From Thermoactinomyces vulgaris (GTDB lineage: Bacteria; Bacillota; Bacilli; Thermoactinomycetales; Thermoactinomycetaceae): DNA of 64,000 nt. The stretch is taken from the NCBI RefSeq assembly GCF_003688725.1, contig NZ_REFP01000007.1:230900-294899 (forward strand). Direction: 5' to 3'. Under the pieces are notes generated by a model. That model saw only the letters and a program-made list of their open reading frames with translations. It searched no databases and had not been told where the DNA came from. Shown piece after piece: positions 1 through 34,720 of the stretch. Numbering within the stretch: the stretch's first letter is position 1; every line of letters starts with the position of its first letter. Made by a program: the position numbers and the translations under genes.

Positions 1-126
1 ATAGTGAAAGTAGACGGCTATCAGGAAGAATGGGCGGAACGCTTAAGAGAGTACCTGCTTAAAAACCACCCGGCAGGCAGTGACAAGAAGATCAAGAAAG
101 AAGAATTGTTGAAATTGATTTCATAA
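1..126 (+). CDS. Imm6-like immunity protein, C-terminal part (cut by window edge)
   Basis: Frame 1 is open from the first base and ends in TAA after 41 residues. It carries the C-terminal signature shared by the other family members here: GYQEEW, then LREYLLKNHPAGS, then IKKEELL. The start lies outside the window. By family knowledge, Imm6-type proteins are small cytoplasmic proteins that neutralise polymorphic toxins delivered by neighbouring cells; that role is inferred from similarity to what I recall of the family. It is the first of at least five related copies in the window. Confidence 0.75.
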   Translation: MVKVDGYQEEWAERLREYLLKNHPAGSDKKIKKEELLKLIS

Positions 127-304
127 TTCTGTTTTGGTGATCATAAAAAGAGGCCTGCACCGGTAAAAAGATACGTTTTTTCGTTTTGGCTTGATCACCT
201 TGAAGGGGAATCCTGTCATAAGTTATATATCCAATAAGGAAATAATCAGAGTGATGTGAGACTTTTCTTCGAGAATTTAAAAAGTTGGAAAGGCGGGATT
301 TGCC

Positions 305-809
305 ATCGCATGGTATAAACATCTCAGTGAGGATGCAAAAGCGGCTTATGTATTGTGCTTATCGGAAAAGATGTTGGTTTTGACAAGAAATTACTCATGG
401 CATCGCCTGATTCGGAACGTGATGGATATGTGCTGGGAATGGGTTGAACATCGTAAATACAGTGCGGTGGAGATTTATGACGTGTTTGCTGATGAAGATG
501 ATGCACTGGTTTTCATTGAGCACTATCCGGGAGTGGTTGATAATCCTGCACTAAAATCTCTGTTTTTCTGCATATTTGACGGCATTTGTTATGTGATATG
601 GAAAGCTTATCAAACAGAGCAAGATTATTTTCCCCCCCATGCTGGAAAGCGAAAGTGATCAATCCATCGAGCTCTTTATGGAAAAAATCAGAGAAGTGGA
701 TGGCTGCCAGGAAGAATGGTCCGAACGTTTAAAGGAATATTTGCTTAAAAACTACCCGGCCGGAAGCGGCAAGAAGATTAAAAGAGAAGAGTTGTTGAAA
801 CTGATCTGA
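305..809 (+). pseudogene. Imm6-like immunity gene, frameshifted at a C7 tract
   Basis: Two frames together encode a full Imm6-like protein. The first covers WYKHLSEDAKAAY through QDYFP. The second covers MLESESDQ through the GCQEEW...LKEYLLKNYPAGS...IKREELLKLI end. They join at a run of seven C (632-638), where six would keep the frame. No ATG/GTG/TTG stands at the expected start: the codon before AWYKH is ATC, 9 bases after a GGCGGG ribosome site, and an in-frame TAA lies just upstream; a TTG at 353 is the first standard start. The sequence is very close to the copy at 2021-2572, so this is a recent duplicate. It may be dead, phase-variable, or intact apart from a sequencing error. Confidence 0.7.
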
Positions 810-1129
810 AAAAAATTTGATATTGCTAATTTGGAAGAATCTGTATCGATTGCGCCGCCTGGGTTGTTCCACCTTGCTCTTAAATTCCTTCTTTGGGCAA
901 ACACAATGTTCATCATGAGGTCCGGTTGATTTTCCAAATCCTTCTGCTCACTTCCGACTTATCTTGATTAGATTAGCACTTGTCAAAGACCAGAAAGTCT
1001 TTCATAAACATCCCTATTCACTTCCGCTTTTCCGCCTCTTCTTTTAAGTACATAATCACAGGCGGATTTCTTTTGGCGTTAAGTTTACTCAATCTTCAGT
1101 TCAATCATGAAACCAATTCTTTGATCGCT
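810..1129. other. Intergenic stretch, possible decayed coding sequence
   Basis: About 320 bases between the frameshifted Imm6-like gene and the minus-strand gene that ends at 1130. I see no convincing gene, terminator or RNA. On the minus strand, around 750-937, there is a short open stretch (MENQPDLMMNIVFAQRRN...) whose composition looks protein-like. It has no ribosome site and overlaps the neighbouring gene, so it may be a remnant of an old toxin or immunity gene. Confidence 0.3.
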
Positions 1130-1441
1130 TTATTCATTTACTTCTGCGCTTTGAAAAAGATTTTTATATTGTTTTGCCAAGTCAGGGTGGTCCAAGTAGG
1201 TATCCATGATCGTCAAAGCATCCAAAAAATGGCACTTCCGCAACTTCATGATGGTTTGTATACTCAACCCTTCAACCAGTGGTTCATCAGAGACGGCTTG
1301 ATGATCCAGCCATTCATCAAAAGGCTTTTGAAGCCGATCTGTCACCTTGTCTAAAAGGGATATCATCGCTTCAATTTCATGATCATGCCATCCTTCTCTT
1401 TGTAAAACTCTGATTAATTTTCTCTCATTGAATTCAAGCAT
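1130..1441 (-). CDS. Small unknown protein, paralogue of the gene at 1543
   Basis: 103 residues, ATG start with an AGGAGGT site 8 bases upstream on the minus strand. No recognised domain; predicted to be mostly helical and acidic, cytoplasmic, no signal or membrane segment. It is clearly related to the divergently transcribed protein at 1543-1857. Both begin ML(E/S)F(N/D)E, share DRLQ...(D/M)(E/Q)W, and share the C-terminal pattern (N/D)ALTIM(D/N)...DP(D/N)LA. A role in the surrounding immunity-gene array is inferred from position only. Confidence 0.7.
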   Translation of the reverse strand: MLEFNERKLIRVLQREGWHDHEIEAMISLLDKVTDRLQKPFDEWLDHQAVSDEPLVEGLSIQTIMKLRKCHFLDALTIMDTYLDHPDLAKQYKNLFQSAEVNE

Positions 1442-1542
1442 TTGTTTACCTCCTGATTTTTTAAACTATAATTAATTATACTTATCGTTTGGATGATTTT
1501 CTTATTTTATTATCTTGAACGTTAGCTCAGGAGGGAGAACTT

Positions 1543-1857
1543 TTGCTGAGTTTTGATGAAAATCAACTTAAATCTGTTTTGATTGAAGAAGAAGGAATTG
1601 AGGAATCGAAAACATCCTTTATCATAGAAAACCTGAAAAAATTGGACGATCGGCTTCAGGAAACGATGGATCAGTGGATGAAGGATCGGAGCATCTCTAA
1701 TTTCAATGTTGAAGGTGTTGATTTAAAGTTCATCATGGAAAAAGGGAAAGTAAATTTTCATAACGCGTTGACCATCATGAACGCTTTTTTGTATGATCCG
1801 AATTTAGCGGAAACTTATAGAAAAAATCCATACGCTTTTTCAGGGCCTATGCGATGA
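1543..1857 (+). CDS. Small unknown protein, divergent paralogue of the gene at 1130
   Basis: 104 residues from a TTG start; a strong GGAGGGA site lies 8 bases upstream and no better start is in frame. Same family as the 1130-1441 gene, with which it forms a head-to-head pair separated by only about 100 bases, so the two promoters sit between them. The C-terminus matches through ALTIMNAFLYDPNLAETY and then ends in an unrelated tail (SGPMR). I recognise no known family. The arrangement suggests an inverted duplication. Confidence 0.7.
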   Translation: MLSFDENQLKSVLIEEEGIEESKTSFIIENLKKLDDRLQETMDQWMKDRSISNFNVEGVDLKFIMEKGKVNFHNALTIMNAFLYDPNLAETYRKNPYAFSGPMR

Positions 1858-2020
1858 AAAAAGGTTGGTTCATCACTTTCTTTGATTTTCTTAGCGCATG
1901 CCCATCGGAAAATTTGGAAGGGAAGGGTGGTTATTCTTTTCGGATCACTCTCCGAACAACTTCTCTTCCCACGATTCCGCCAGCTTTCATCGTCCCTCCG
2001 ATGATCGCTTGACCGGTATC

Positions 2021-2572
2021 ATGTTTGGAATTCTAAAAGTTGGAAAGGCGGGACTTGCCATCGCTTGGTATGAACATCTCAGTGAGGATGCAAAAGCAGC
2101 TTATGTATTGTGCTTATCGGAAAAGATATTGGTTTTGACAAGAAGTTACCCGTGGCATCAATTGATTCGGAACATGATGGATATGTGTTGGGAATGGGTT
2201 GAAGGGAAAAAGTATGGTGCAGATGATCTGTATTATCAGTTTGATGACGAAGAAGACGGACTCATTTTTATTGAAGGAGAGAAGGAAGTGGCGGAAAGCC
2301 CGCAATTCATGCTCATTCTCCATACGATTCTGGAAGCAATTTGTTACATAGTGTGGCAAGCTTATAAGTATGAAAAGAAAGATTATCTTCCGCAAATCCT
2401 TGACTTGGTGAGTGATGAATCGATAGAAATGGATTTTATGGCAAAAATAAAGCGAATTCATGGTTATCAAGAAGAATGGTCTGAACATTTAAAAGAATAC
2501 TTGCTAAAAAATTACCCTGCCAGAAGTGATAAGCAAATCAAAAGAGAAGAATTGTTGAAGTTAATTTTATAA
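2021..2572 (+). CDS. Imm6-like immunity protein
   Basis: Full-length member of the local Imm6-like family. From the family-equivalent first residue (IAWYEHLSEDAKAAY) it is 170 residues long. The N-terminal half has LSEKILVL and MCWEWVEGKKYGADDLY; the C-terminal block is GYQEEW...LKEYLLKNYPA...IKREELLKLIL. The start is uncertain. ATG 2021 gives MFGILKVGKAG before the conserved part, while at the expected start after the GGCGGGA site there is an ATC codon, just as in the copy at 305. The upstream reading frame stays open to 1898, but that part looks non-coding. Nearest relative in the window is the frameshifted copy at 305-809. Confidence 0.75.
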   Translation: MFGILKVGKAGLAIAWYEHLSEDAKAAYVLCLSEKILVLTRSYPWHQLIRNMMDMCWEWVEGKKYGADDLYYQFDDEEDGLIFIEGEKEVAESPQFMLILHTILEAICYIVWQAYKYEKKDYLPQILDLVSDESIEMDFMAKIKRIHGYQEEWSEHLKEYLLKNYPARSDKQIKREELLKLIL

Positions 2573-2587
2573 AGACGATGGAGGATT

Positions 2588-2700
2588 AAGCATTCAAGAT
2601 AAATTCAAAGTTTTTTCCAATCCAACTTGGGAAACCGTTTATGAATTTTTGGAAATCATGGATGGATTTGACCGAATCCTTTCCACGTGAATTTTTAATG
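2588..2700 (+). pseudogene. Decayed fragment related to the gene at 3816
   Basis: A short frame reads IQDKFKVFSNPTWETVYEFL, then EIMDGFD, before a TGA. It matches the N-terminal pattern of the gene at 3816-4261 (NPDWKQIKSYLDQVDG): NP-x-W, hydrophobic spacing, DG. Beyond the stop, to about 2760, another frame has pieces such as NYQCDG that could be further remnants. No intact gene remains. This is an inference from a short match. Confidence 0.4.
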
Positions 2701-2766
2701 AAAAAATCAGATTGGCTTTCTGGAGAATGTGGATTTTGAAAATTATCAATGTGACGGGGGATCTTG

Positions 2767-3291
2767 ATGGGGAAATGGTATCAGAAAGTAAACATGGATG
2801 CAAAAGCCGCTTATTATTTAACGTTGTCAGAAAAAATATCGGAACCATTGGATTTTGGTGATGATTGGGATGCGGTTATCAGAAAATCCATCAATCTTTG
2901 TTGGGAATGGGTTGAGGCGAAGATGCATGATTCTTATGCCATGTATGATGGACTGACGGATGAAGACGAGGGTTTTTATGTTCTTTCAACTTTGGACGGT
3001 GTCTTCCAAGATGATTTGCAAGCGGAATCGGCGTATTGGTGTTTGTTCTTTGCCGTATCTTATACCTTAAAGCAAGCATTAATATTTGAAAACAAGGAAC
3101 ATCATGGTCCGCAAGAACTCGAATCCGTCAATGACGATTCCACCTATATTCAGTTTATGGAAGAAATCAAAAAAACAGAAGGCTACCAAGAAGAGTGGTC
3201 CCGGCGTTTAAAAGAGCACTTGCTTAAAAATTACCCAGCCGGAAGTGACGAGCAAATCAAAAGAGAAGAATTGTTGGCTTTGATTGTATAA
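2767..3291 (+). CDS. Imm6-like immunity protein
   Basis: 174 residues; ATG start with a GGGGG site 7 bases upstream (a TTG directly before it is possible). Conserved N-terminus GKWYQKVNMDAKAAY and LSEKI, central LCWEWVEAK, acidic middle, and C-terminal GYQEEW...LKEHLLKNYPAGS...IKREELL. The acidic, helical, soluble character suits a toxin-binding protein. No cognate toxin gene lies next to it, so it is probably an orphan immunity gene protecting against toxins of other strains. It is followed by a terminator-like hairpin that resembles those after other copies. Confidence 0.78.
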   Translation: MGKWYQKVNMDAKAAYYLTLSEKISEPLDFGDDWDAVIRKSINLCWEWVEAKMHDSYAMYDGLTDEDEGFYVLSTLDGVFQDDLQAESAYWCLFFAVSYTLKQALIFENKEHHGPQELESVNDDSTYIQFMEEIKKTEGYQEEWSRRLKEHLLKNYPAGSDEQIKREELLALIV

Positions 3292-3316
3292 ATGTATGAT
3301 TGAATAGAAGTATAAG

Positions 3317-3356
3317 TGAGGCTTGTTCTTTTTCACCGGAGCAGGCCTTTGGCTTG
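3317..3356 (+). terminator. Terminator-like hairpin after Imm6-like gene
   Basis: Inverted repeat AGGCTTGTTC / GAGCAGGCCT around a loop containing CACCGG, followed by a weak T-rich stretch. The same core (…CACCGG…, then TTGGCTTGG) recurs after the gene ending at 4904 and, degraded, at about 150-205, so the 3' flank was duplicated together with the genes. Confidence 0.5.
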
Positions 3357-3398
3357 GTTAAAAATGCAAGTGGATTTGTAAATGGGGGAAAATAATAG

Positions 3399-3803
3399 AT
3401 GAACTGTCTGTACTCCCGATTAAAAAGACTGCTGGAAATCACTGAATCTGAAGAATATGACATTGATTCGAGGAATTATCCACTGTTGGAGAAAAAATGC
3501 GAGGCAATGATTGGCGAAATCAGGGGGTATTTGGAAACATCGGCATCCAAGGATGAAATCGAAGACATTATTAAATCATATCCAGCAATTGTGTATTTAT
3601 TGCGAGTTGATTTGGCATTTGACTTATTTCACCAAGCATTCATGCTGGGATCTCTGGACAAAGATGTAATCATCGCATTTGCCCGTTTCATTTATGCGTA
3701 TGGCCCGGATTGGGATGAAGAATCGAAGCGAATTGAGGAATTTGTAGCTGAAAATAAACTTGAAGAGGCCGTAAAAATCGCCTTATCGGTAAAGTATGAT
3801 TGA
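3399..3803 (+). CDS. Small helical unknown protein in the immunity array
   Basis: 134 residues, ATG start after a GGGGGA site. No signal peptide or membrane segment; almost all helical and acidic (EESKRIEEFVAENKLEEAVKIAL at the C-terminus). I do not recognise the family. Its place between Imm6-like genes and an NPxW-type gene suggests another orphan immunity protein, but that rests on context only. Confidence 0.6.
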   Translation: MNCLYSRLKRLLEITESEEYDIDSRNYPLLEKKCEAMIGEIRGYLETSASKDEIEDIIKSYPAIVYLLRVDLAFDLFHQAFMLGSLDKDVIIAFARFIYAYGPDWDEESKRIEEFVAENKLEEAVKIALSVKYD

Positions 3804-3815
3804 ACAGGTGATCGA

Positions 3816-4261
3816 ATGAGTAAATGGGAACTAAGCCAGGTGGCGGGAAAGAAAAGATTAAAAATCCGGATTGGAAACAAATCAAAAGTTACTTGGATCA
3901 AGTGGATGGGGACCAAGTGGGTTGTGATTACTTTGATACTTTATATTTAACCAACCCGGATTTTGGCGACATGACCGTCACCGGGGGAAATGAAATCGAT
4001 GGTCGCCGACTGTACGCAGTATCATTTTTCCCGATAGAATTTGATTATCGCATACAATATTGTTTGGCAAATCCTGAGGTTCAAACACGAGATGAAGAAT
4101 TTGAAATGATCACAACCCAAGGAGTGGGAGCGGATTATAACAAGGAATGGTTGGTGGAATATGATCCGATGATTCAAGCTTTTAAACATTTCTTTGAAAC
4201 AGGAAAACTTGACGATGCACTAATTTGGGAAGATTTAGCACACAGAGTCCTTAAAAAATGA
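3816..4261 (+). CDS. Small immunity-like protein, probable frameshift near the start
   Basis: The body reads KEKIKNPDWKQIKSYLDQVDG and continues with an acidic alpha/beta sequence (DYFDTLYLTNPDFGDMTVTGG...FEMITTQGVGAD) to TGA at 4261. An ATG at 3824 opens this frame but has no ribosome site. ATG 3816, after AGGTG, reads MSKWELSQV in another frame and would join perfectly (…SQVGGKEKIKNP) if one G were restored in the GTGGCGGG run near 3830. I think 3816 is the true start and that one base is missing. The family is not identified; a decayed relative lies at 2588-2700. Confidence 0.6.
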
Positions 4262-4391
4262 AAAAATCGTTCCGATGTGTTTAAAAGTCATGTCAACGAT
4301 CCATCAAGGGTGAAGTATGAAAAGGTAAATGAAGAGGCCGAAGCTGCATATTTGCAGATTCATACTCCCGGGAAAGGGTGAAAGAGGTGCC

Positions 4392-4904
4392 ATGAGTTGG
4401 TACACCCAAATCAATGAAGAGGCTCGGGTGGCTTATTTATTGAGTTTAACAGAGAAAATCTTGGATCAAGTAACCAAAGGTCCCGCTGATGCCCGAAAAG
4501 CCGTTGATATGTGCTGGGCATGGGTCGAAGAGAAGAAATATGATGGCGGTGATCTTTACCTTGTATTTGAAAATGAAGAAGATGGCGGAGTCTCCATGTT
4601 TTATGAAGATGAAGTGGATGAGGAAAATTCTCAGCAGGCAGGTATGTGGTTATGCATCAATTATGCATTGGAGTACACCATCTGGCAGGCGTATAAATTT
4701 GAGTATGGTGATGATTGTTTTGTCCCACAACCCATTGAAATTGTTGATGATGAAATAATTGATGAATTTACAAAAGAAATAGCAAAAACAGAAGGCTACC
4801 AAGAAGAGTGGGCCAAGTGTTTAAAGGAATACCTGCTGAAACATTATCCGGCAGGAAGTGAAAAGAAGATTAAAAGAGAACAGTTGTTGGACTTGATTGC
4901 ATAA
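4392..4904 (+). CDS. Imm6-like immunity protein
   Basis: 170 residues from ATG 4392, with an AAAGAGGTG site 3-4 bases upstream. It shows the family's features in order: SWYTQINEEARVAY, LTEKIL, MCWAWVEEKKYDGGDLY, an acidic centre, PQPIEIVDDE, GYQEEW, LKEYLLKHYPAGS and IKREQLL. The VDDE segment before the C-terminal block is shared with the copy at 34205. Intact and probably functional. It is the last gene of the array, converging on the dikinase gene across a shared terminator. Confidence 0.8.
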   Translation: MSWYTQINEEARVAYLLSLTEKILDQVTKGPADARKAVDMCWAWVEEKKYDGGDLYLVFENEEDGGVSMFYEDEVDEENSQQAGMWLCINYALEYTIWQAYKFEYGDDCFVPQPIEIVDDEIIDEFTKEIAKTEGYQEEWAKCLKEYLLKHYPAGSEKKIKREQLLDLIA

Positions 4905-4910
4905 TTGTTG

Positions 4911-13240: not shown

Positions 13241-14047
13241 CTAACAGTTGATGTTTAACCTTTTTTCTTTTTGATGGATCTTTTGGATTAACTTCTCGTT
13301 ATAATCTTTGCCATCGATCCCATTATGTACGCGTCGATGGCAGTTTGGACAAATGGCTGCGACATGTTCGGGATGGTCATATCCACCATCGGATAAGCGT
13401 CTTAAATGATGAACCTCAAGAAAGGGCTCATTCTTTTTATTGATAAAAGGAGCCGGTTGGCCGCATGCTTCGCATTTCCCTTTCGATCTGGCGAGTGCGT
13501 ATTTTTTGACCGCGAGTGTTCTTTTTCGGTAAATCACTTTCCCCTCAGAGATGGTGCTACTTTGTGTTTTTATTTGCTGATCAAGTGCTATCTTTTTTAA
13601 GGTATGAAGGTCGTTGGTTTTGAAATCTTCGGATTCTATCGGGGTTTCATCCCATTGATTGACGAGATCCGAAATTGCGAGGTGAAAAACAATAATCTCA
13701 CGTTGGCCATCGTTTTCAAAATGATGTCCGATGTAAGTTAACTGATTGACAAACGCTACGACTCCTTTTCGAACATACTGGAATAAATAAAGGTCTTTGC
13801 CATTTTCATTATGTTCTCGAATGGCTTTATTACCTTTCGTAAATTGCATCGGACCTTTTTGTCCTTCGCCTGTATAATAAAAAACACCGTCTTCCCAATA
13901 ATCTTTATAGCCGTAGTTTTGTCCAGACTCTCCTGTGAAAAGCATGATAAATGGGTAATTTTTTGGAGTAGAAATGCCTCCATAACGTTGTCCACCATAG
14001 AGTTCGTGAAGTTTTCTGCGCTGGTATTCTTTTCCGATGATAAACAT
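13241..14047 (-). CDS. HNH endonuclease with SRA-like domain (McrA/ScoMcrA type)
   Basis: 268 residues, ATG with AGGAGG site. The N-terminal half (about 5-120) has GGQRYGGISTPKNYPFIMLFTGESG, then YGYKDYWEDG, YYTGEGQKG and GNKAIREH; this is the pattern I associate with SRA/YDG-like domains that recognise modified DNA. The C-terminal HNH domain (about 195-255) has CEACG ... EVHHLRRLSDGG ... CPNCHRRVH: four Zn-binding cysteines and the catalytic His. Likely a type IV restriction enzyme that cuts modified (methylated or phosphorothioated) foreign DNA. Stand-alone gene at the edge of the defence-like island. Confidence 0.82.
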   Translation of the reverse strand: MFIIGKEYQRRKLHELYGGQRYGGISTPKNYPFIMLFTGESGQNYGYKDYWEDGVFYYTGEGQKGPMQFTKGNKAIREHNENGKDLYLFQYVRKGVVAFVNQLTYIGHHFENDGQREIIVFHLAISDLVNQWDETPIESEDFKTNDLHTLKKIALDQQIKTQSSTISEGKVIYRKRTLAVKKYALARSKGKCEACGQPAPFINKKNEPFLEVHHLRRLSDGGYDHPEHVAAICPNCHRRVHNGIDGKDYNEKLIQKIHQKEKRLNINC

Positions 14048-14194: not shown

Positions 14195-14287
14195 TTTCCA
14201 ATATATCTGTCGGGTTCTTTTTTAGGATTGTCCCAGCTCGTAAAATTGTTTATATTCAACTTGTCATTTTTCGTTCAAAGGAGCTTG

Positions 14288-14839
14288 ATGGTTTTGTTAA
14301 AATCAGATGTCCGTCTGAGTAAGTTTCTGAGCAAAGTTTTACGTCATAAGCCGGAGATGATCGGTCTTGAGTTGGATCAAAATGGATGGGTGGATGTGGA
14401 GCAGCTTTTGATGGCATGCCGCAACCATGGGGTTCCGATGGATCGGACGGTGTTGGAGCGGATTGTGGCGACGAATGAGAAGCGGCGTTTTGCTTTTAGT
14501 GAAGACGGACAAAAGATCCGGGCGAATCAAGGGCATTCCATCGTGGTGGATTTAAATCTCAAGCCGGTGCAACCGCCCGAACGGTTGTATCATGGAACGG
14601 CGGAACGTTTTCTTCATTCCATCCGTCAAAAGGGGCTGGTGAAAGGAAAACGGCATCATGTGCATTTGTCCGGGGATCCGGATACAGCCCGTAAGGTGGG
14701 AAGCAGACACGGAAAACCTGTCATTTTGGTTGTTCTGGCAAAGGAGATGCATGAGGAAGGATATGTCTTTTTTCGTTCTGCCAATGGGGTTTGGTTGACA
14801 GATCATGTTCCGGTCCGCTATTTAAAGGAAAGGAAATAA
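14288..14839 (+). CDS. kptA: RNA 2'-phosphotransferase (Tpt1/KptA)
   Basis: 183 residues from ATG 14288, with AAAGGAG just upstream; the open frame extends further 5' but is not conserved-looking. N-terminal winged-helix part: RLSKFLSKVLRHKPEMIGLELDQNGWVDVEQLL. C-terminal ADP-ribosyltransferase-like part: LYHGTAERFLHSIRQKGL and HVHLSGDPDTARKVGSRHG, plus VFFRSANGVWLTDHVP. Arg and His of the R-H-R-R set are visible. The enzyme uses NAD+ to remove a 2'-phosphate from RNA. Bacterial substrates are not settled, although repair of cleaved and ligated tRNA is a known idea. Its place among defence genes fits RNA repair. Confidence 0.92.
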   Translation: MVLLKSDVRLSKFLSKVLRHKPEMIGLELDQNGWVDVEQLLMACRNHGVPMDRTVLERIVATNEKRRFAFSEDGQKIRANQGHSIVVDLNLKPVQPPERLYHGTAERFLHSIRQKGLVKGKRHHVHLSGDPDTARKVGSRHGKPVILVVLAKEMHEEGYVFFRSANGVWLTDHVPVRYLKERK

Positions 14840-15521: not shown

Positions 15522-17048
15522 TTAACGCAGATGGTTTGCAAACTGCTTTTTCGTCGAGATTTCCATTTCTCCATCCTTTTTATCTGCATCTTCTTCCTCT
15601 TCATCTCTAAAGTCATCATCCACACGCATTTTTGCACGAATGGTTGCAAGATCCGAGGCAATATTCAGTTGGCTTCGGTTCAGGTTGAAAATGACTTGTT
15701 CCATTTTTTCTTTGGGAATTTGCTTTTGCAATTCAGATTCAATGGTTTGGATCAACCGGTTCATGACGGTGTTGAAAAAGGAGCGGATGGTTTGATCACT
15801 GTGGGTTCGGTGATCGTACCATTTGGTGAAACCATAAGCCCCCGCCAAATCTTCCATGGTTTTTTGCTTGAAGCTGCGCCCTTTATAAGCAATATATTGG
15901 AGCAGTTGGTAAGCTAAGGACAATTCGTCTTTTTTGCTTAATGTGGTGTTAAATAATCGGGTTTTGTGGAACGCGGCTGTTTCAATTAACTCTTCGATGT
16001 CAAAGGAACGACTGGAAGTGCAGTGCTTTTGGATTATTTTTTGAATGGACGCAGAGGATTGGATGACGTTGAACAGTTCTTTTGCATCGTTTTGCCAGTG
16101 TTTTTTGGAGGTGGAAAGCAATTTGGAGGCAGTTTCGACGAATTGTTCATAAGTTTTTTCCACTGCTTCATTCGGAGAGGTTCTGGCTTTTGGATAGATA
16201 GTGCAGGATTGACATTCGGACTGAATGGGGCATTGCGCACAGCGAAAGGGCAAAGGTTTTGAGTTTTTGTGCAGGCCGCCTTCCACTTGATGAACAATCT
16301 CATTGACTCCACTTAATAAAGTGTTCATTTTTTTCGTCAGCTTTTTTTCTTTTTTCCAAAGAATTGTTTTGGTTTCGTTTTGATATTTAATTTGGCCGAT
16401 GATGTGATCTGTGAAAAAATGTGAATGGAAGATTTTCATTTGGGCGGCCAATTCAATGAGATCACTTTTTTTGCTGTACCGGAGATAGCCGGGGATTTTA
16501 TCATTGGAACGATCCAAGTGGATATAAAATTTGTTTCCTTCATAAGTCACCTCCAGTTTGGTACCAAGGGGAGGTTTTGATGAAAAATCATAGAGAACCA
16601 ATGAAGGGTTGATTTTTAATTCTTTCAAAAGCAGCCGGTATGGATCCAATTGTTTCTCCAGGATGCGGACCGTCCACTGTTTCCAGTTCTTATGGAGCCA
16701 CCAGAGCACCCCGATTACTAATCCGGTCAGAAAGATATATAACACATACGATTTGAGGACCAACATAGCCAGGAGTAAGGAACCTAGGAAAATGATTGGC
16801 TCATTTGGTCTTTTCTTTTTGGTGTGACGTTTACGCTTTTTCGTCTTTGCTCTTTTCTTGGCGTAAAAGAGGTCCTTTTTTAGCTTTTGATAATGCTCAT
16901 AACGCTTTTTTCGTTTTTCATATCGCCTTCGTTGAGCAGATATATCAATATTCCATTGATATTCATTATCCGTCTTTCGTTTGAACCAGTATTCCGGACA
17001 ATACAAATAATCCTTTAATTCTTTGGTATTGATTTTCTCCATGTTCAT
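15522..17048 (-). CDS. Membrane protein with Cas4-like cysteine motifs, unknown function
   Basis: 508 residues from ATG 17048 (GTG 17051 is in frame before it). In order: YLYCPEYW near the N-terminus; a very basic Lys/Arg stretch (about 35-80); two hydrophobic segments (about 84-120); a region with IPGYLRYSKKSDLIELAAQM and GQIKYQ; a cysteine cluster CAQCPIQSECQSC; a helical part; then the motif NRSQLNIASDLATIRA and an acidic tail. One N-terminal Cys plus a later Cys cluster, with an LIELAAQ-then-G-x-I-x-Y region between, resembles Cas4 nucleases, but the expected E-x-K is not visible, so it may be inactive. It forms a pair with 17057-17428, 9 bases upstream. The Cas4 link is my inference. Confidence 0.6.
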   Translation of the reverse strand: MNMEKINTKELKDYLYCPEYWFKRKTDNEYQWNIDISAQRRRYEKRKKRYEHYQKLKKDLFYAKKRAKTKKRKRHTKKKRPNEPIIFLGSLLLAMLVLKSYVLYIFLTGLVIGVLWWLHKNWKQWTVRILEKQLDPYRLLLKELKINPSLVLYDFSSKPPLGTKLEVTYEGNKFYIHLDRSNDKIPGYLRYSKKSDLIELAAQMKIFHSHFFTDHIIGQIKYQNETKTILWKKEKKLTKKMNTLLSGVNEIVHQVEGGLHKNSKPLPFRCAQCPIQSECQSCTIYPKARTSPNEAVEKTYEQFVETASKLLSTSKKHWQNDAKELFNVIQSSASIQKIIQKHCTSSRSFDIEELIETAAFHKTRLFNTTLSKKDELSLAYQLLQYIAYKGRSFKQKTMEDLAGAYGFTKWYDHRTHSDQTIRSFFNTVMNRLIQTIESELQKQIPKEKMEQVIFNLNRSQLNIASDLATIRAKMRVDDDFRDEEEEDADKKDGEMEISTKKQFANHLR

Positions 17049-17056
17049 CACTCTTT

Positions 17057-17428
17057 CTATGTATTTGTGATCGTTTGAATTACATCACTGGCGGTGCTGA
17101 TGGCTGCAAGCAAAGTGGAACCCAATTGAAGCTCTGGATGGATGTTTTCAATTTTTTCCCGGAAGCGTGTCAGTTTGCTCTTGGAGACTTCATCGTTTTT
17201 CATTTCTTCCAAGAGGTCCTCCGTCGTGGCACTCAGTTTTACCAGTTCTTTGTCAGGGTTGGGCACGTTTACCAATGCTTCGTGCAACTTTTGAAGAGCG
17301 ATCCATAATTTTTCCATGAGGTCTTCTTGGGATGATTGGGAATAAGAGGCGTGAATGGTTGCCTGATCACTGGCAATATTGACTTGGCTTTTGGAGCTGT
17401 TAAAAGTGGCGTTGCCTTGGATTTTCAT
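17057..17428 (-). CDS. Small helical protein sharing a NIASDxATI motif with its neighbour
   Basis: 123 residues from ATG 17428 after AAGGGGGGAAG. The N-terminus MKIQGNATFNSSKSQVNIAS continues DQATIHA; the rest is helical (residues 30-100, with charged heptad-like stretches) and ends in a weakly hydrophobic segment (LLAAISTASDVIQTI). The N-terminal motif recurs near the C-terminus of the Cas4-like membrane protein encoded next, as SQLNIASDLATIRA. The two genes are 9 bases apart and form one operon. A short motif shared between neighbours is typical of partner proteins that self-assemble; the actual function is unknown. Confidence 0.65.
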   Translation of the reverse strand: MKIQGNATFNSSKSQVNIASDQATIHASYSQSSQEDLMEKLWIALQKLHEALVNVPNPDKELVKLSATTEDLLEEMKNDEVSKSKLTRFREKIENIHPELQLGSTLLAAISTASDVIQTITNT

Positions 17429-17883: not shown

Positions 17884-18870
17884 ATGCGAAAACACTTTCT
17901 GCTTTTACTGACAGTCCTGATGCTTTCCGGAGTTTTTCTGATTCCGGCAGAAGGACAAGCTCAAGAATCTCAGGATGTGGAAGCGTTAAGAAAAGAAGTG
18001 GAAAGCCTTCGCTCTGAAGTCGAAAAGCTGAAAACCAAAAATGATGAGTACAACTTTTTAAAAGAGCAGATCAAGGAATTTAAAAATTCAGCAGATAAGG
18101 ACATGGATGATAACCGTGCATTCGTAGAAAGAGAATGGGATAAGTTTTTAACCTTTTTATATGTTGTTGGGGGATTAGCTGCCTTTTTCCTCGGAGCATC
18201 TTTTTTTTCGTTTTGTAAGAAATTGAAAGACAAAGCTGAGCAAGAATATGAGGACTTGAAGAAAAAATCAATGGATAAATTTGAAAAACAAAAAGCAGAA
18301 GTGGAAGAAGAATTCAGTAAGAAATGGGATCGATTTGTAAAAGAAAACAAATTGAATAAAAGAGTAGATGACTTAGAGCAGTTGATGGAAAATGAACGGA
18401 GATATAAAGAAGCGAAGATACTGGTTCTCGGGTCAGAGGAAGATTTGTATAAGATGCAGGAATATCTAAATCCCGCGCTGATCAAGCGAGGAGTGAGAAT
18501 ACCTGAGTACTTTTCTTTGGACAAAAATGCTAATCAAGTACCTAAAGAAGAGATAAAAGAGAAACTGAAAGATAAAGAGATTGTTGTTTATTACTATGAT
18601 CCAAAAGTAAAAGAAGAACAGGGTAAAAAAGAAATTTCACCAGATTTAAGGATGAAAGCAATAATGGAATTAATCAAAAATGAGAATTTACAGGTGCCTG
18701 TAATTATTTATAGCTATAAAAAAGGGGAAAACGGATGGTTAGAAAAAAGTGATAAGGATTTCATCGATGATTTTGATTTTATTTGGCTTGTGCTTGCAAA
18801 CTATCCCTCAACTTTATTAGGCCATATCTTTACATATATCCATGCACTCCCTGAAAAAAAGGAGGGCTGA
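17884..18870 (+). CDS. Secretory-signal, coiled-coil membrane protein linked to the Cmr operon
   Basis: 328 residues, ATG after GAGGAGGAG. Signal peptide (1-25, ending near EGQAQ), coiled coil (about 30-75: EALRKEVESLRSEVEKL), one membrane segment (about 93-115: FLTFLYVVGGLAAFFLGASF), a second coiled coil (about 117-175), and a C-terminal alpha/beta domain (about 178-328) with strand-like KILVLGS, EIVVYYYDP and VPVIIYSYK. The predicted topology puts the C-terminal domain in the cytoplasm. The stop codon is 4 bases from cmr1, whose ribosome site lies inside this gene, so co-transcription is nearly certain. I recognise no CARF, CorA, HEPN or other known type III effector. It may be a membrane effector or tether responding to Cas10 signalling. 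Confidence 0.75.
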   Translation: MRKHFLLLLTVLMLSGVFLIPAEGQAQESQDVEALRKEVESLRSEVEKLKTKNDEYNFLKEQIKEFKNSADKDMDDNRAFVEREWDKFLTFLYVVGGLAAFFLGASFFSFCKKLKDKAEQEYEDLKKKSMDKFEKQKAEVEEEFSKKWDRFVKENKLNKRVDDLEQLMENERRYKEAKILVLGSEEDLYKMQEYLNPALIKRGVRIPEYFSLDKNANQVPKEEIKEKLKDKEIVVYYYDPKVKEEQGKKEISPDLRMKAIMELIKNENLQVPVIIYSYKKGENGWLEKSDKDFIDDFDFIWLVLANYPSTLLGHIFTYIHALPEKKEG

Positions 18871-32342: not shown

Positions 32343-32625
32343 GTGAAGTGGTATAAAAAAGTAAACACCGATGCAAAAGCGGCTTATTTATTGGCTTTGT
32401 CCGAAAAGATCGTGTACAAAATATCCGGCCGTGAATGGTTTCAAGAAGCAAGGGAAGCGATGGACAGGTGTTGGGAGTTGGAAAGTGATGAAATGATTGA
32501 TCAGTTTACGGACAAAGTGAATAAAATTAACGGATACCAAGAGCAATGGGCGGAACGTTTGTAACAATATCTTTTGCAAAATTATCCGTCCGGAAGTAAC
32601 AACAAGATCCGGCAGGAAACATGCG
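32343..32625 (+). pseudogene. Imm6-like pseudogene (internal deletion and stop)
   Basis: Starts well (GTG after GGGAGGGC; KWYKKVNTDAKAAYLLALSEKI). It then jumps from MDRCWELE directly to SDEMIDQFTDKV, missing the central 60-70 residues of intact copies. TAA follows QWAERL where the copy at 34205 has CAA; beyond the stop the frame continues QYLLQNYPSGSNNKIRQE. So it carries a deletion and a nonsense mutation. It lies right behind the toxin-immunity pair, a usual place for orphan immunity genes. Confidence 0.75.
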
Positions 32626-32748
32626 GAGCAGGGAAGAGCTGGAGGCGGAAAACGGGACTTTCGGGATGTACCGGACTTTCTTTCTTGCGGTGGGTCCGAT
32701 GTGAATCTTTTATTTTTGTCTCATCAAAAAACAAGGGGGCGAACCAAA

Positions 32749-33987
32749 ATGAACACCCGTTTGCCTTTGCAACGGGAAACGATGGGATCTCAACAACCGG
32801 CTTATTATCGGTGGTTGATTTTGACGATTGCAACTTGGTCTCAAGCTTCTGCAACGTTGGTCACTTACGGAGTCGGGCCGCTGGCCGCGATTTGGCAGGA
32901 ACAATGGGGATGGACCACTTTCCAGGCGGGGTTGTTGGTTTCTGCCGTCCAAATCGGCCCTTTATTGTCGATGCTCTTTATTGGTCATGCATTGGATCAA
33001 TACGGGGAACGCTGGCTGATCAGTTTGGGTTCGGTTTTGTTGGGGCTTTCGTTTTTCTTTGTATCGTTTACGGAGAATTACTTCTTGTTGTTGGGATTGC
33101 TCGGGATTGTCGGGATTTGGTATGGAACGGCCCAACCCGGGGGAAGCAAGGTGATTTTGCGCTGGTTCTCAGAAAGGGAAAGAGGCTTGGCCATGGGCAT
33201 CCGGCAGGCTGGCATTCCCATCGGAGGGGCCATCGGCGGAATGTTGCTTCCGTTCTTGTCTTTTCATTTCGGATGGAAAACGGCGGTATATACCCAGGCG
33301 TCCCTTGCCATCTTCGGTGGCTTGTTGTTCTTGGTTTTATACCGTGATCCGCCTCTTCCGCGCCAAAGCCAAAACAACCGCAATGCACAATTCAAAGAAA
33401 AGATCAAAGAGATTGCCGAAAATAAAAAAATGTTTCCGGTTTTATGCACCGGGATCATCATGGTTTCCCTTCAAATGGTTTTGGTGGGCCATTTGATGAT
33501 CTTCTTCAGCAATGAGACCAATGTGGAACTGGTTCACGCGGGACAGCTGTTATCCACGGCTTTGCTGAGCGGAATGGCAGGGAGGATTGTGCTGGCTTAC
33601 ATCAGTGACAAGTGGTGGGGCGGAAACAGGAAATATCCGCTTCATCTTTCCATCTGGGCATCCGTGTTGGGCGTCTCTGTTTTGATTTTCCTTCCCGCGT
33701 CTCTGCCTGTGTGGGTTCTCTTTCTCTTGTCGGCATGGCTGGGCTTTTTTGGCATCGGATGGTTCAGTTCCTTTCTTTTGGCAGTGGCCGAGAACGCCCC
33801 GCCTCAGGCAGACGGATTGATGGTCAGCTATGCGCTCACACTCAACCAAGTGGCCATCATCCTGGCTCCGGCCGTTTTCGGGTTTATCGTGGATATGCAA
33901 TCTTATTCCGTGGCTTGGTTGCTTATGGATTTGTTGCTGATCGGTAATGGATTGTTACTTTTAAAGAAAAGGACATTTGAAGGATAA
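32749..33987 (+). CDS. MFS transporter
   Basis: 412 residues from ATG 32749 (AAGGGGG upstream). Twelve predicted membrane helices; the loop between helices 2 and 3 is GHALDQYGERW, the MFS signature D-x5-R region, and FSERERGLAMGIRQAGIPIGG is the helix 4-5 motif typical of the oxalate/monocarboxylate and CynX-like groups. Likely imports or exports an organic acid; the substrate is unknown. Single gene between two Imm6 regions with its own terminator. Perhaps connected to the organic-acid operon downstream. Confidence 0.85.
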   Translation: MNTRLPLQRETMGSQQPAYYRWLILTIATWSQASATLVTYGVGPLAAIWQEQWGWTTFQAGLLVSAVQIGPLLSMLFIGHALDQYGERWLISLGSVLLGLSFFFVSFTENYFLLLGLLGIVGIWYGTAQPGGSKVILRWFSERERGLAMGIRQAGIPIGGAIGGMLLPFLSFHFGWKTAVYTQASLAIFGGLLFLVLYRDPPLPRQSQNNRNAQFKEKIKEIAENKKMFPVLCTGIIMVSLQMVLVGHLMIFFSNETNVELVHAGQLLSTALLSGMAGRIVLAYISDKWWGGNRKYPLHLSIWASVLGVSVLIFLPASLPVWVLFLLSAWLGFFGIGWFSSFLLAVAENAPPQADGLMVSYALTLNQVAIILAPAVFGFIVDMQSYSVAWLLMDLLLIGNGLLLLKKRTFEG

Positions 33988-33997
33988 TTTGGTGCAT

Positions 33998-34023
33998 GCC
34001 ACTCAGATCAGAGTGGCTTTTTT
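33998..34023 (+). terminator. Terminator after MFS gene
   Basis: GCCACTC / GAGTGGC stem with 6-base loop and six or more T. Confidence 0.85.
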
Positions 34024-34044
34024 ATGACCATAAGTGGAGAGGGA

Positions 34045-34115
34045 TTGTTTGAAACAATATCTGTTTTACAACCATCCGGCGGGAAGCAGGAAGAATCAAA
34101 AGGGAAGACACTGAG
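34045..34115 (+). pseudogene. Remnant of an Imm6-like gene 3' end
   Basis: The frame LKQYLFYNHPAGSRKNQKGR matches the C-terminal block of the intact copy at 34205 (LQQYLLHNHPAESNKK). One base is missing before ATCAAAAGGGAAGA, which otherwise encodes IKRE. No other part of the gene remains. Confidence 0.65.
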
Positions 34116-34204
34116 TGAAGTTGATGAATTGATTTTTGATATATTGATTCCTGCCCGCAGGTTTTTGCATAAATCAGAAATGAAAAGATAAACAGGTGAT
34201 ACCC

Positions 34205-34708
34205 ATGAAATGGATTTCAAACGTTCATGATGACGCCGGGCCGGCTTATTTATTGGCTTTAACAGAAAAACTGATCAACCGGTTGAAAGGAACAAAGGGT
34301 TATCCGCAGTTGAAAAAGACGATTGGCATGTGTTGGGAATGGGTGGAGGAGAAAAAACACAGTGCGGATGATATTTATTTCGAGTTTGACAATGAAAATG
34401 ACACGGGGGTGTCGATCTATCTTGAGCTGACCGATGATCCGCAAGAAGAGCAGATTTGGGTGTGTGCAATGTACGCCATTTGTTATACCATATGGCGGGC
34501 ATATGATCACGCAAATGAAAAATACATTCCCCAACCCATTGAAATGGTTGATCATGACACGATTGAAGAATTTATGAAGCAGATCAGACAAATCGACGGA
34601 TACCAAGCAGAATGGGCAGAGCGCTTGCAACAATATCTGCTTCACAACCATCCGGCGGAAAGTAACAAGAAAATCAAGAGAAATGAACTATTGAAGCACA
34701 TCGATTAA
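34205..34708 (+). CDS. Imm6-like immunity protein
   Basis: 167 residues from ATG 34205 (GTG 34196 is possible). Complete: KWISNVHDDAGPAYLLALTEKL, MCWEWVEEKKHSADDIYFEF, an acidic strand, AICYTIWRAYDH, PQPIEMVDHDTIEEF, GYQAEWAERLQQYLLHNHPAES, IKRNELL, each block matching the copies at 1-5 kb. The intact copy nearest to the toxin gene. It probably protects against a toxin other than the deaminase, whose own partner is the SUKH-like gene. Confidence 0.8.
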   Translation: MKWISNVHDDAGPAYLLALTEKLINRLKGTKGYPQLKKTIGMCWEWVEEKKHSADDIYFEFDNENDTGVSIYLELTDDPQEEQIWVCAMYAICYTIWRAYDHANEKYIPQPIEMVDHDTIEEFMKQIRQIDGYQAEWAERLQQYLLHNHPAESNKKIKRNELLKHID

Positions 34709-34720
34709 AACGAAACCGGG

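Follow-up and report, generated by a model that had tools for sequence, protein, structure and literature searches.

The window, by which we mean the entire 64,000-nucleotide stretch of Thermoactinomyces vulgaris DNA analysed here, contains two adjacent genes that we interpret, with about an even chance of being right, as a split, membrane-anchored two-gene module of the PDC-M14B type, in which a catalytically dead Cas4-like sensor would be coupled by a short motif to a small helical partner. The initial annotation had placed an open reading frame at 15522-17048, which is indeed present on the minus strand and encodes a protein of 508 amino acids; its description covered approximately residues 1-290 and overlooked the M14B-like C-terminal domain, the motif and the partner gene. 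This protein, the large component, comprises a degenerate Cas4-like domain with a predicted membrane hairpin, a PDC-M14B-like helical domain, the motif and an acidic tail, in that order, and the small component combines an N-terminal motif with a helical domain. The features of the locus, in window coordinates, are the following:

17057-17428, minus strand: small component, 123 amino acids, directly upstream of the large component and in the same direction
17348-17404, minus strand: N-terminal motif FNSSKSQVNIASDQATIHA, residues 9-27 of the small component (motif matching)
15522-17048, minus strand: large component, 508 amino acids (open reading frame and profile matches)
16959-17048, minus strand: N-terminal Cas4 segment, residues 1-30, with Cys17 in YLYCPEYW (TIGR00372 and PADLOC Cas4 matches within residues 7-65)
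16689-16799, minus strand: predicted two-helix membrane hairpin, residues 84-120, following a K/R-rich stretch (hydropathy)
16203-16607, minus strand: degenerate Cas4 core, residues 148-282 (hhalign)
16506-16517, minus strand: L178-D179-R180-S181 where E-x-K would stand (aligned to the four intact Cas4-like membrane proteins)
16203-16241, minus strand: C270-x2-C273-x5-C279 (-x2-C282), presumed Fe-S ligands with Cys17 (conservation)
15696-16160, minus strand: helical domain, residues 297-451, corresponding to the N-terminal half of PDC-M14B (PDLC04449)
15633-15689, minus strand: C-terminal motif FNLNRSQLNIASDLATIRA, residues 454-472 of the large component (motif matching)

The large component starts at a GTG at 17051 or an ATG at 17048, from which its residues are numbered throughout, and its stop lies at 15522; an alternative start is the ATG at 17042, which has AAAGAG 5' of the codon. 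The gap between the two genes is accordingly 8 or 14 nucleotides, set by the choice of start codon. The ATG of the small component is preceded by a G-rich stretch.

Profile comparisons support a Cas4 ancestry for the N-terminal domain of the large component, a relation that the initial annotation had suggested from sequence patterns and proposed to check by a profile search against Cas4 families. Direct matches are weak: TIGR00372 aligns with residues 7-60 (E 0.007, 16.2 bits, below the curated cut-off of 65), and three PADLOC Cas4 models align with residues 7-65, 7-60 and 190-281 (E 7e-4 to 2e-3). These matches sit at the expected ends of the Cas4-like part, with the K/R-rich stretch and the hydrophobic hairpin between them. 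Profile-profile scores are strong. In hhalign, a profile of five relatives scored 81.1 (Prob 97.3, E 1.9e-11) against four intact Cas4-like membrane proteins from this order, and 45.7 (Prob 85.4, E 5.8e-6) against 28 Cas4 sequences (drawn from 30 loci, of which L060 and L065 yielded none). The maxima over 100 column shuffles of each target were 21.8 and 19.9, respectively, and the reversed targets gave 18.9 and 13.8. The intact membrane family is in turn connected with Cas4: its L049 protein, from the same genome, matches TIGR00372 with 69.2 bits and so passes the cut-off of 65, which the L017 protein, at 42.1 bits, does not reach. Furthermore, the profile of this intact family matches PDB entry 4ic1 at E 1.1e-4; the entry is titled as an uncharacterised protein, and we take it to be a Sulfolobus Cas4. 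Sequence searches of the PDB with the large component itself, and with a four-row profile of its residues 1-290 (A9), returned no nuclease. The stretch IPGYLRYSKKSDLIELAAQM and the later GxIxY motif (GQIKY), both pointed out earlier, are present. Two Pfam matches on the large component, Gemini_AL1 (E 0.0026) and Protocadherin (E 0.23), lie below the cut-offs of their own models and were set aside as chance.

The intact protein encoded in the same genome (L049 1177-1749; G000:C1, around 630650-631021) is a single-TM Cas4-like nuclease that ends in C-x2-C-x6-C, and no YxCPxxW segment was seen in it; its gene lies downstream of a thioredoxin reductase-like gene, and L043 has a similar neighbour. 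At L017 (1011-3214 and beyond), a CRISPR-like array with 32 repeat copies at a spacing of 72-81 nucleotides is found some 5 kb from the intact TM-Cas4-like gene.

Most of the remainder of the large component and nearly all of the small one correspond to complementary parts of a single known profile. PDLC04449, the PADLOC model for PDC-M14B, matches the large component over residues 297-476, equivalent to profile positions 9-178 (E 9.5e-16), extending through the C-terminal motif; it matches the small component over residues 6-120, equivalent to positions 153-265 in the C-terminal half (E 2.9e-10). Complementary matches of the same kind recur in L054 from Seinonella peptonophila, which has the same two-gene arrangement as the window. 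Ordinary M14B is a single protein of about 265 amino acids, encoded at loci in six genomes outside the order (L028-L033) and found in 7 of the 398 genomes of the phylum sample, the window's own genome included. Each M14B of L028-L033 adjoins a protein of about 150 amino acids resembling the zinc-ribbon protein M14A, an identification confirmed by profile in both cases tested (L028 and L029); in L033 it lies on the opposite strand. The motif occurs once, internally, in each of six aligned M14B proteins, and both window pieces carry this junction motif. In the window's genome the sole M14A match is partial (profile positions 19-87, E 6.1e-7) and lies on a different contig. In Polycladospora (L056), Thermoactinomyces daqus (L055) and genome G039 (L116), the Cas4-like and M14B-N-like proteins are products of separate adjacent genes, the latter being matched directly by the M14B-N profile in L055 and L116 and assigned by position and motif, with no profile match, in L056. 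Thus, the two remain linked even when unfused. The defence label that PADLOC attaches to PDC-M14 is that of a candidate, i.e. a prediction; a literature search over open-licence PMC found no paper naming PDC-M14, and to our knowledge no experiment ties it or the present module to defence.

The sequence common to the two window genes is SQ[LV]NIASDxATI; the pair scores 62, and the best of 134 control ORFs scores 40. M14B-type matches were found in 16 of the 42 genomes of the order surveyed, and across the order small motif-plus-helix genes adjoin very different partners: 1) SF1-type helicases matched by Pfam AAA_11/AAA_12 (L035, L115, L123, L126); 2) NACHT- or NPHP3-type (STAND) NTPases with Sel1 repeats, likewise by Pfam (L114, L121); 3) small membrane proteins (L112, L120) and helicase-like proteins (L117, L119), both recognised by eye; 4) a partner in L113 for which the Pfam search gave no match. 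In 13 of 19 small-gene loci, a terminus of an adjacent ORF matches the N-terminus of the small protein better than do all 134 non-adjacent ORFs. The six loci that failed this test are L056, where the match is in the next-but-one gene, L113, where it is internal, and L034, L118, L122 and L124, four of the 19 small genes for which no neighbour with a matching motif was found. L125, where the module is fused, and L116, G001 and G038, where no small gene was seen, were excluded from both the adjacency and the specificity counts.

Specificity was assessed on 15 pairs, namely the 13 adjacency-positive ones with L056 and L113, which were chosen for having a match, so that the ranking tests specificity and not frequency. 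The small protein ranks its cognate partner first in 12 of the 15, and the cognate total was reached by none of 20000 permutations. The three that rank other partners higher are L114 and L115, whose cognate comes third, and L117, whose cognate comes second; L115, L117 and L119 are mutually similar helicase-type loci. In the reverse direction, 11 of 15 partners place their own small protein first. In L056 the motifs on the large and the small side have both diverged, together, and have another sequence in common (scores 107 and 112). In a smaller comparison the large-protein motif of L014 scored 57 against the small protein of L013 and 52 against its own, and the interrupted L012 copy scored 66 against the window's small protein, for which the window's own large protein scored 62. 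The co-variation is partly phylogenetic, because homologous pairs share descent.

Among other loci of this type, the window's own genome encodes a small motif-plus-helix gene before an interrupted-looking STAND/Sel1 NTPase, with no matching motif found (L034 6082-9792), and another after an SF1-type helicase with a matching C-terminal motif (L035 2963-6523). In L125 (5063-8488) the small module is fused to the C-terminus of a 1141-aa protein that appears helicase-like by eye.

A less probable reading of these data is that the motif is a plain oligomerisation element, such as a β-solenoid or similar structure, left over from the fission of an ancestral protein and having no part in templated signalling. 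The single, internal occurrence of the motif in the six aligned M14B proteins fits such an origin, and the halves in the window could simply reassemble. This reading has to contend with the pairing of the same small-protein type with unrelated SF1 helicases, STAND NTPases and small membrane proteins. Given these varied partners, and the occurrence of the matching motif at either of their termini, fission of M14B alone is an insufficient explanation.

The initial annotation had also noted a Lys/Arg-rich stretch and two hydrophobic helices inserted in the large component. Residues 84-120 are indeed strongly hydrophobic, with a best 19-residue mean of 2.28, and are predicted to form a hairpin. 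Such a hydrophobic hairpin is present in four of five members tested (the window, L054, L055 and L056); membrane anchoring is not universal, because L014 lacks it. No clear transmembrane helix is seen in the small protein, for which the best 19-residue mean was 0.87-1.58 in four homologues. We consider it rather unlikely that the membrane protein is itself the effector, forming a two-helix pore or otherwise disrupting the membrane, with the small protein as adaptor or inhibitor and the dead Cas4 domain serving only in regulation. The recurrence of the predicted hairpin speaks for that arrangement, as does a weak match of a PADLOC '2TM' effector model to the Cas4-like protein of L056 (E 0.0022). 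Against it, L014 has lost the hairpin and kept the rest, and of the 11 motif pairs that lack a Cas4-like protein, 8 have a sensor-like helicase or NTPase as their large partner (six by Pfam, L117 and L119 by eye).

AlphaFold2 models built on 6 and 4 rows reached mean pLDDT values of 54.6 and 54.4, too low to confirm the fold or the proximity of the cysteines. The predicted order of core elements in these low-confidence models is a strand (163-170), a second strand (173-180), a helix (194-211), a third strand (216-222) and a further helix. When a low-pLDDT model was compared with the PDB, the matches listed included weak ones to EndoMS, a Pyrococcus abyssi repair endonuclease, Card1 and EXO5 at Z 3.9-4.7, and AddAB at Z 5.1 amid many unrelated rows. 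Foldseek with the low-pLDDT model gave nothing at E 0.001, and the best 50 rows of each PDB comparison held no match above noise; nor was a Cas4 chain among them, an absence that carries no weight as evidence. For the C-terminal domain model, the best rows, all at Z of 6.0 or below, were helical bundles such as HEPN and FAT, and they are not relied on here.

Examination of the catalytic positions shows that the Cas4-like domain has lost its active site. The alignment covers seven members: the window protein, L054, L014, L056, L055, L116 and the interrupted copy L012. The acidic position of E-x-K holds no acid in any of the seven, being Leu in six and Tyr in L055; the catalytic Lys is Arg (R180) in all seven; and the Gln of the QLAAY motif position is absent throughout. 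The catalytic Asp is lost too, although the alignment is less certain there and acidic residues lie close by in some members. The earlier reading of a missing active site is therefore borne out by the E, Lys and Gln positions; that the E-x-K is replaced also stands, with the correction that the site, L178-D179-R180, precedes the Pro and does not follow it.

Conservation elsewhere in the domain is pronounced. The six intact members are invariant in both alignments at L15, C17, W21, R180, P186 and Y188, as well as at G218, Y222, R269, C270, C273 and C279, and the intact members are only 20-34 percent identical to the window protein. The single N-terminal cysteine proposed within YLYCPEYW is thus Cys17, one of the invariant residues. 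The C-x2-C-x5-C-x2-C cluster proposed near the end of the domain is present at C270, C273, C279 and C282, of which the last is not among the invariant residues, and in L054 the final spacing is x6 rather than x5. C17, C270, C273 and C279 reproduce the Cas4 pattern of one N-terminal cysteine, as in CRISPR Cas4, and a C-terminal C-x2-C-x5-C, and presumably hold an Fe-S cluster. Also in common with Cas4 and Cas4-like (RecB-type, Fe-S) nucleases are the core helix followed by GxIxY and the profile-profile similarity; unlike Cas4, the large component has lost E-x-K and Gln, has Arg for Lys, contains the hairpin and K/R-rich insert, is fused to a second domain and comes from a genome with no cas1 match. 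It is improbable that the protein is still a nuclease, with an active site rebuilt around D179/R180 and nearby acidic residues: a [D/A/L]-R pair does stand where the x-K of E-x-K stood, and some members have acidic residues near the lost Asp position, but Ala replaces D179 in L014 and Leu replaces it in L055, and neither an acid at the E position nor the Gln is found in any of the seven. Judging by these alignments, the Cas4-like core seems to have remained constrained once catalysis was lost. A conserved core without catalytic residues fits a binding or sensing domain rather than decay. The copy in G001 is interrupted; hence, loss of the gene also occurs.

The Cmr1-6 genes of a type III-B CRISPR system begin about 1.8 kb upstream of the large component in divergent orientation, with a gene for a 328-aa membrane protein between, and the initial annotation had remarked on a Cas4 relative beside this operon. 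Comparison does not support a link between the two: of the six further genomes that carry a member of the family, none has Cmr2 on the same contig. It is on another contig in G001, G030, G032 and G039 and was not found in G031 and G038; the members in G001 and G038 sit at contig edges, and in G001 Cmr2 may be near across the gap. No cas1 match was obtained in the window's own genome at E 0.001, and no CARF/SAVED profile matched the 508-aa protein. It is therefore highly improbable that the large component is an accessory protein of the neighbouring Cmr system, since with an unconserved adjacency and no cas1 a type III accessory or spacer-acquisition role explains the gene poorly, and the Cmr neighbourhood looks incidental.

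Other genes nearby include that of the 328-aa protein (17884-18870, plus strand), directly upstream of cmr1, which begins with a signal-like segment, contains a further hydrophobic helix and weakly matches PADLOC membrane-protein models (Mem_02, E 8.6e-5; C3a59, E 0.0012). The window further encodes a protein weakly matching the HNH end of IscB (13241-14047, minus strand; 37 bits, cut-off 175) and an RNA 2'-phosphotransferase (14228-14839, plus strand; NF002014, E 1.7e-82). Diverged repeat copies (142-nt and 111-nt families and others) form two clusters about 30 kb apart, at 16-4908 and 32349-34712.

Within the window's order, members of the family were detected in 7 of 42 genomes, with named relatives in Seinonella, Thermoactinomyces and Polycladospora. 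Seinonella belongs to the Thermoactinomycetaceae, a family of filamentous, spore-forming Bacillota. Full-layout members were confined to this order in searches of the class and phylum samples (398 genomes each) with profile A3 and of the class sample with profile A10, the class sample itself including genomes of the order. Outside the order, there were only M14B-type matches (G100, G250, G353) or Cas4-core matches (G546, G650). Searching the order with the single protein did not reveal the G039 member (L116), which was also not among the matches listed for the class-sample searches with A3 and A10 and was found through M14B only; divergent family members can therefore escape searches. No relatives of the large protein were found in phages and plasmids (tblastn, E 0.01), plasmids searched with the small protein gave none at E 0.001, and viral contigs gave none of either; genome contigs searched with the single large protein gave no relative, and with alignment A3 they gave three. 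The Seinonella copy adjoins genes that by eye read as a type I restriction system, a defence-type setting that speaks for the preferred reading given below. In L116 (4499-9963) the gene of the Cas4-like member forms an operon-like series with genes resembling those of PP2C, VWA and protein-kinase proteins; the PP2C and kinase calls are weak NCBIfam matches, and the VWA call was made by eye. A stop interrupts the M14B-N gene of this locus.

In light of these observations, our preferred reading, the split sensor module, can be set out as follows. A PDC-M14B-type protein would have been taken apart into two genes, gene fission being the direction of change that we infer: the N-terminal helical half was joined to a catalytically dead Cas4-like domain anchored in the membrane, giving the 508-aa protein, the C-terminal half became the small upstream gene of 123 codons' worth of protein, and each half would have retained a copy of the short motif from the former junction. 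By analogy with NLR/BELL amyloid signalosomes, sensing would fall to the large protein, and the small one would be the partner that is assembled. Carrying a four-Cys cluster and an Arg at the position of the catalytic Lys, the Cas4-like domain might bind a cue at the membrane, either nucleic acid or redox, and not cut; the reading of a DNA or redox cue there would be the likeliest step. Clustering of the large protein would then expose its C-terminal motif, which could pair edge-to-edge with the motif of the small protein and so assemble the latter at the membrane, where its helical domain would halt growth or kill the cell. The ligand, the cross-β pairing, the effector action and the defence role are all parts that we infer.

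The nearest known systems share some features with this module and differ in others. With PDC-M14 the window pair shares M14B, matched by the two genes on complementary halves; it departs from PDC-M14 in having M14B divided between two genes, a dead membrane Cas4 attached to the N-terminal half, and no adjacent M14A. In the literature searched (open-licence PMC), nothing on point concerning membrane or inactive Cas4-like proteins was found among the entries listed. According to PMC7889193, NLR/BELL amyloid signalosomes are defined by two proteins, one of them small and helical, that have a cognate short motif in common, and the BASS/NLR signalosomes that it describes from filamentous bacteria resemble the window pair in having adjacent genes, a common short motif and a small helical partner. 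In those signalosomes the motif is at the N-terminus of the NLR and the C-terminus of the effector, whereas here the large protein carries it C-terminally and the small one N-terminally; moreover, the partner here is not an NLR, as no NTPase domain matches the large protein. The likeness is one of gene layout, and any amyloid here is putative. Similarly, according to PMC8195603, the EADs and TRADD-N of conflict systems are small helical domains thought to mediate homotypic assembly with effectors; the small protein is likened to them by description, with no named EAD family among the Pfam matches obtained.

PMC7889193 also asks whether bacteria have signalling amyloids in NLR-independent pathways. 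The paired-motif loci, with their helicase, membrane-protein and dead-nuclease partners, make that question directly testable. We tentatively suggest that short templating motifs outside NLRs could act as a general plug, by which one type of small helical protein pairs, by way of cognate motifs, with helicases, STAND NTPases, membrane proteins and a membrane-anchored dead Cas4 that would sense foreign DNA on its entry at the membrane and set off the small protein, and such coupling may serve virus defence. A dead, membrane-anchored Cas4 would be a case of a CRISPR-family nuclease turned to probable sensing and no longer working as an enzyme, and PDC-M14, an uncharacterised candidate, gains a domain logic of two halves joined by a motif.
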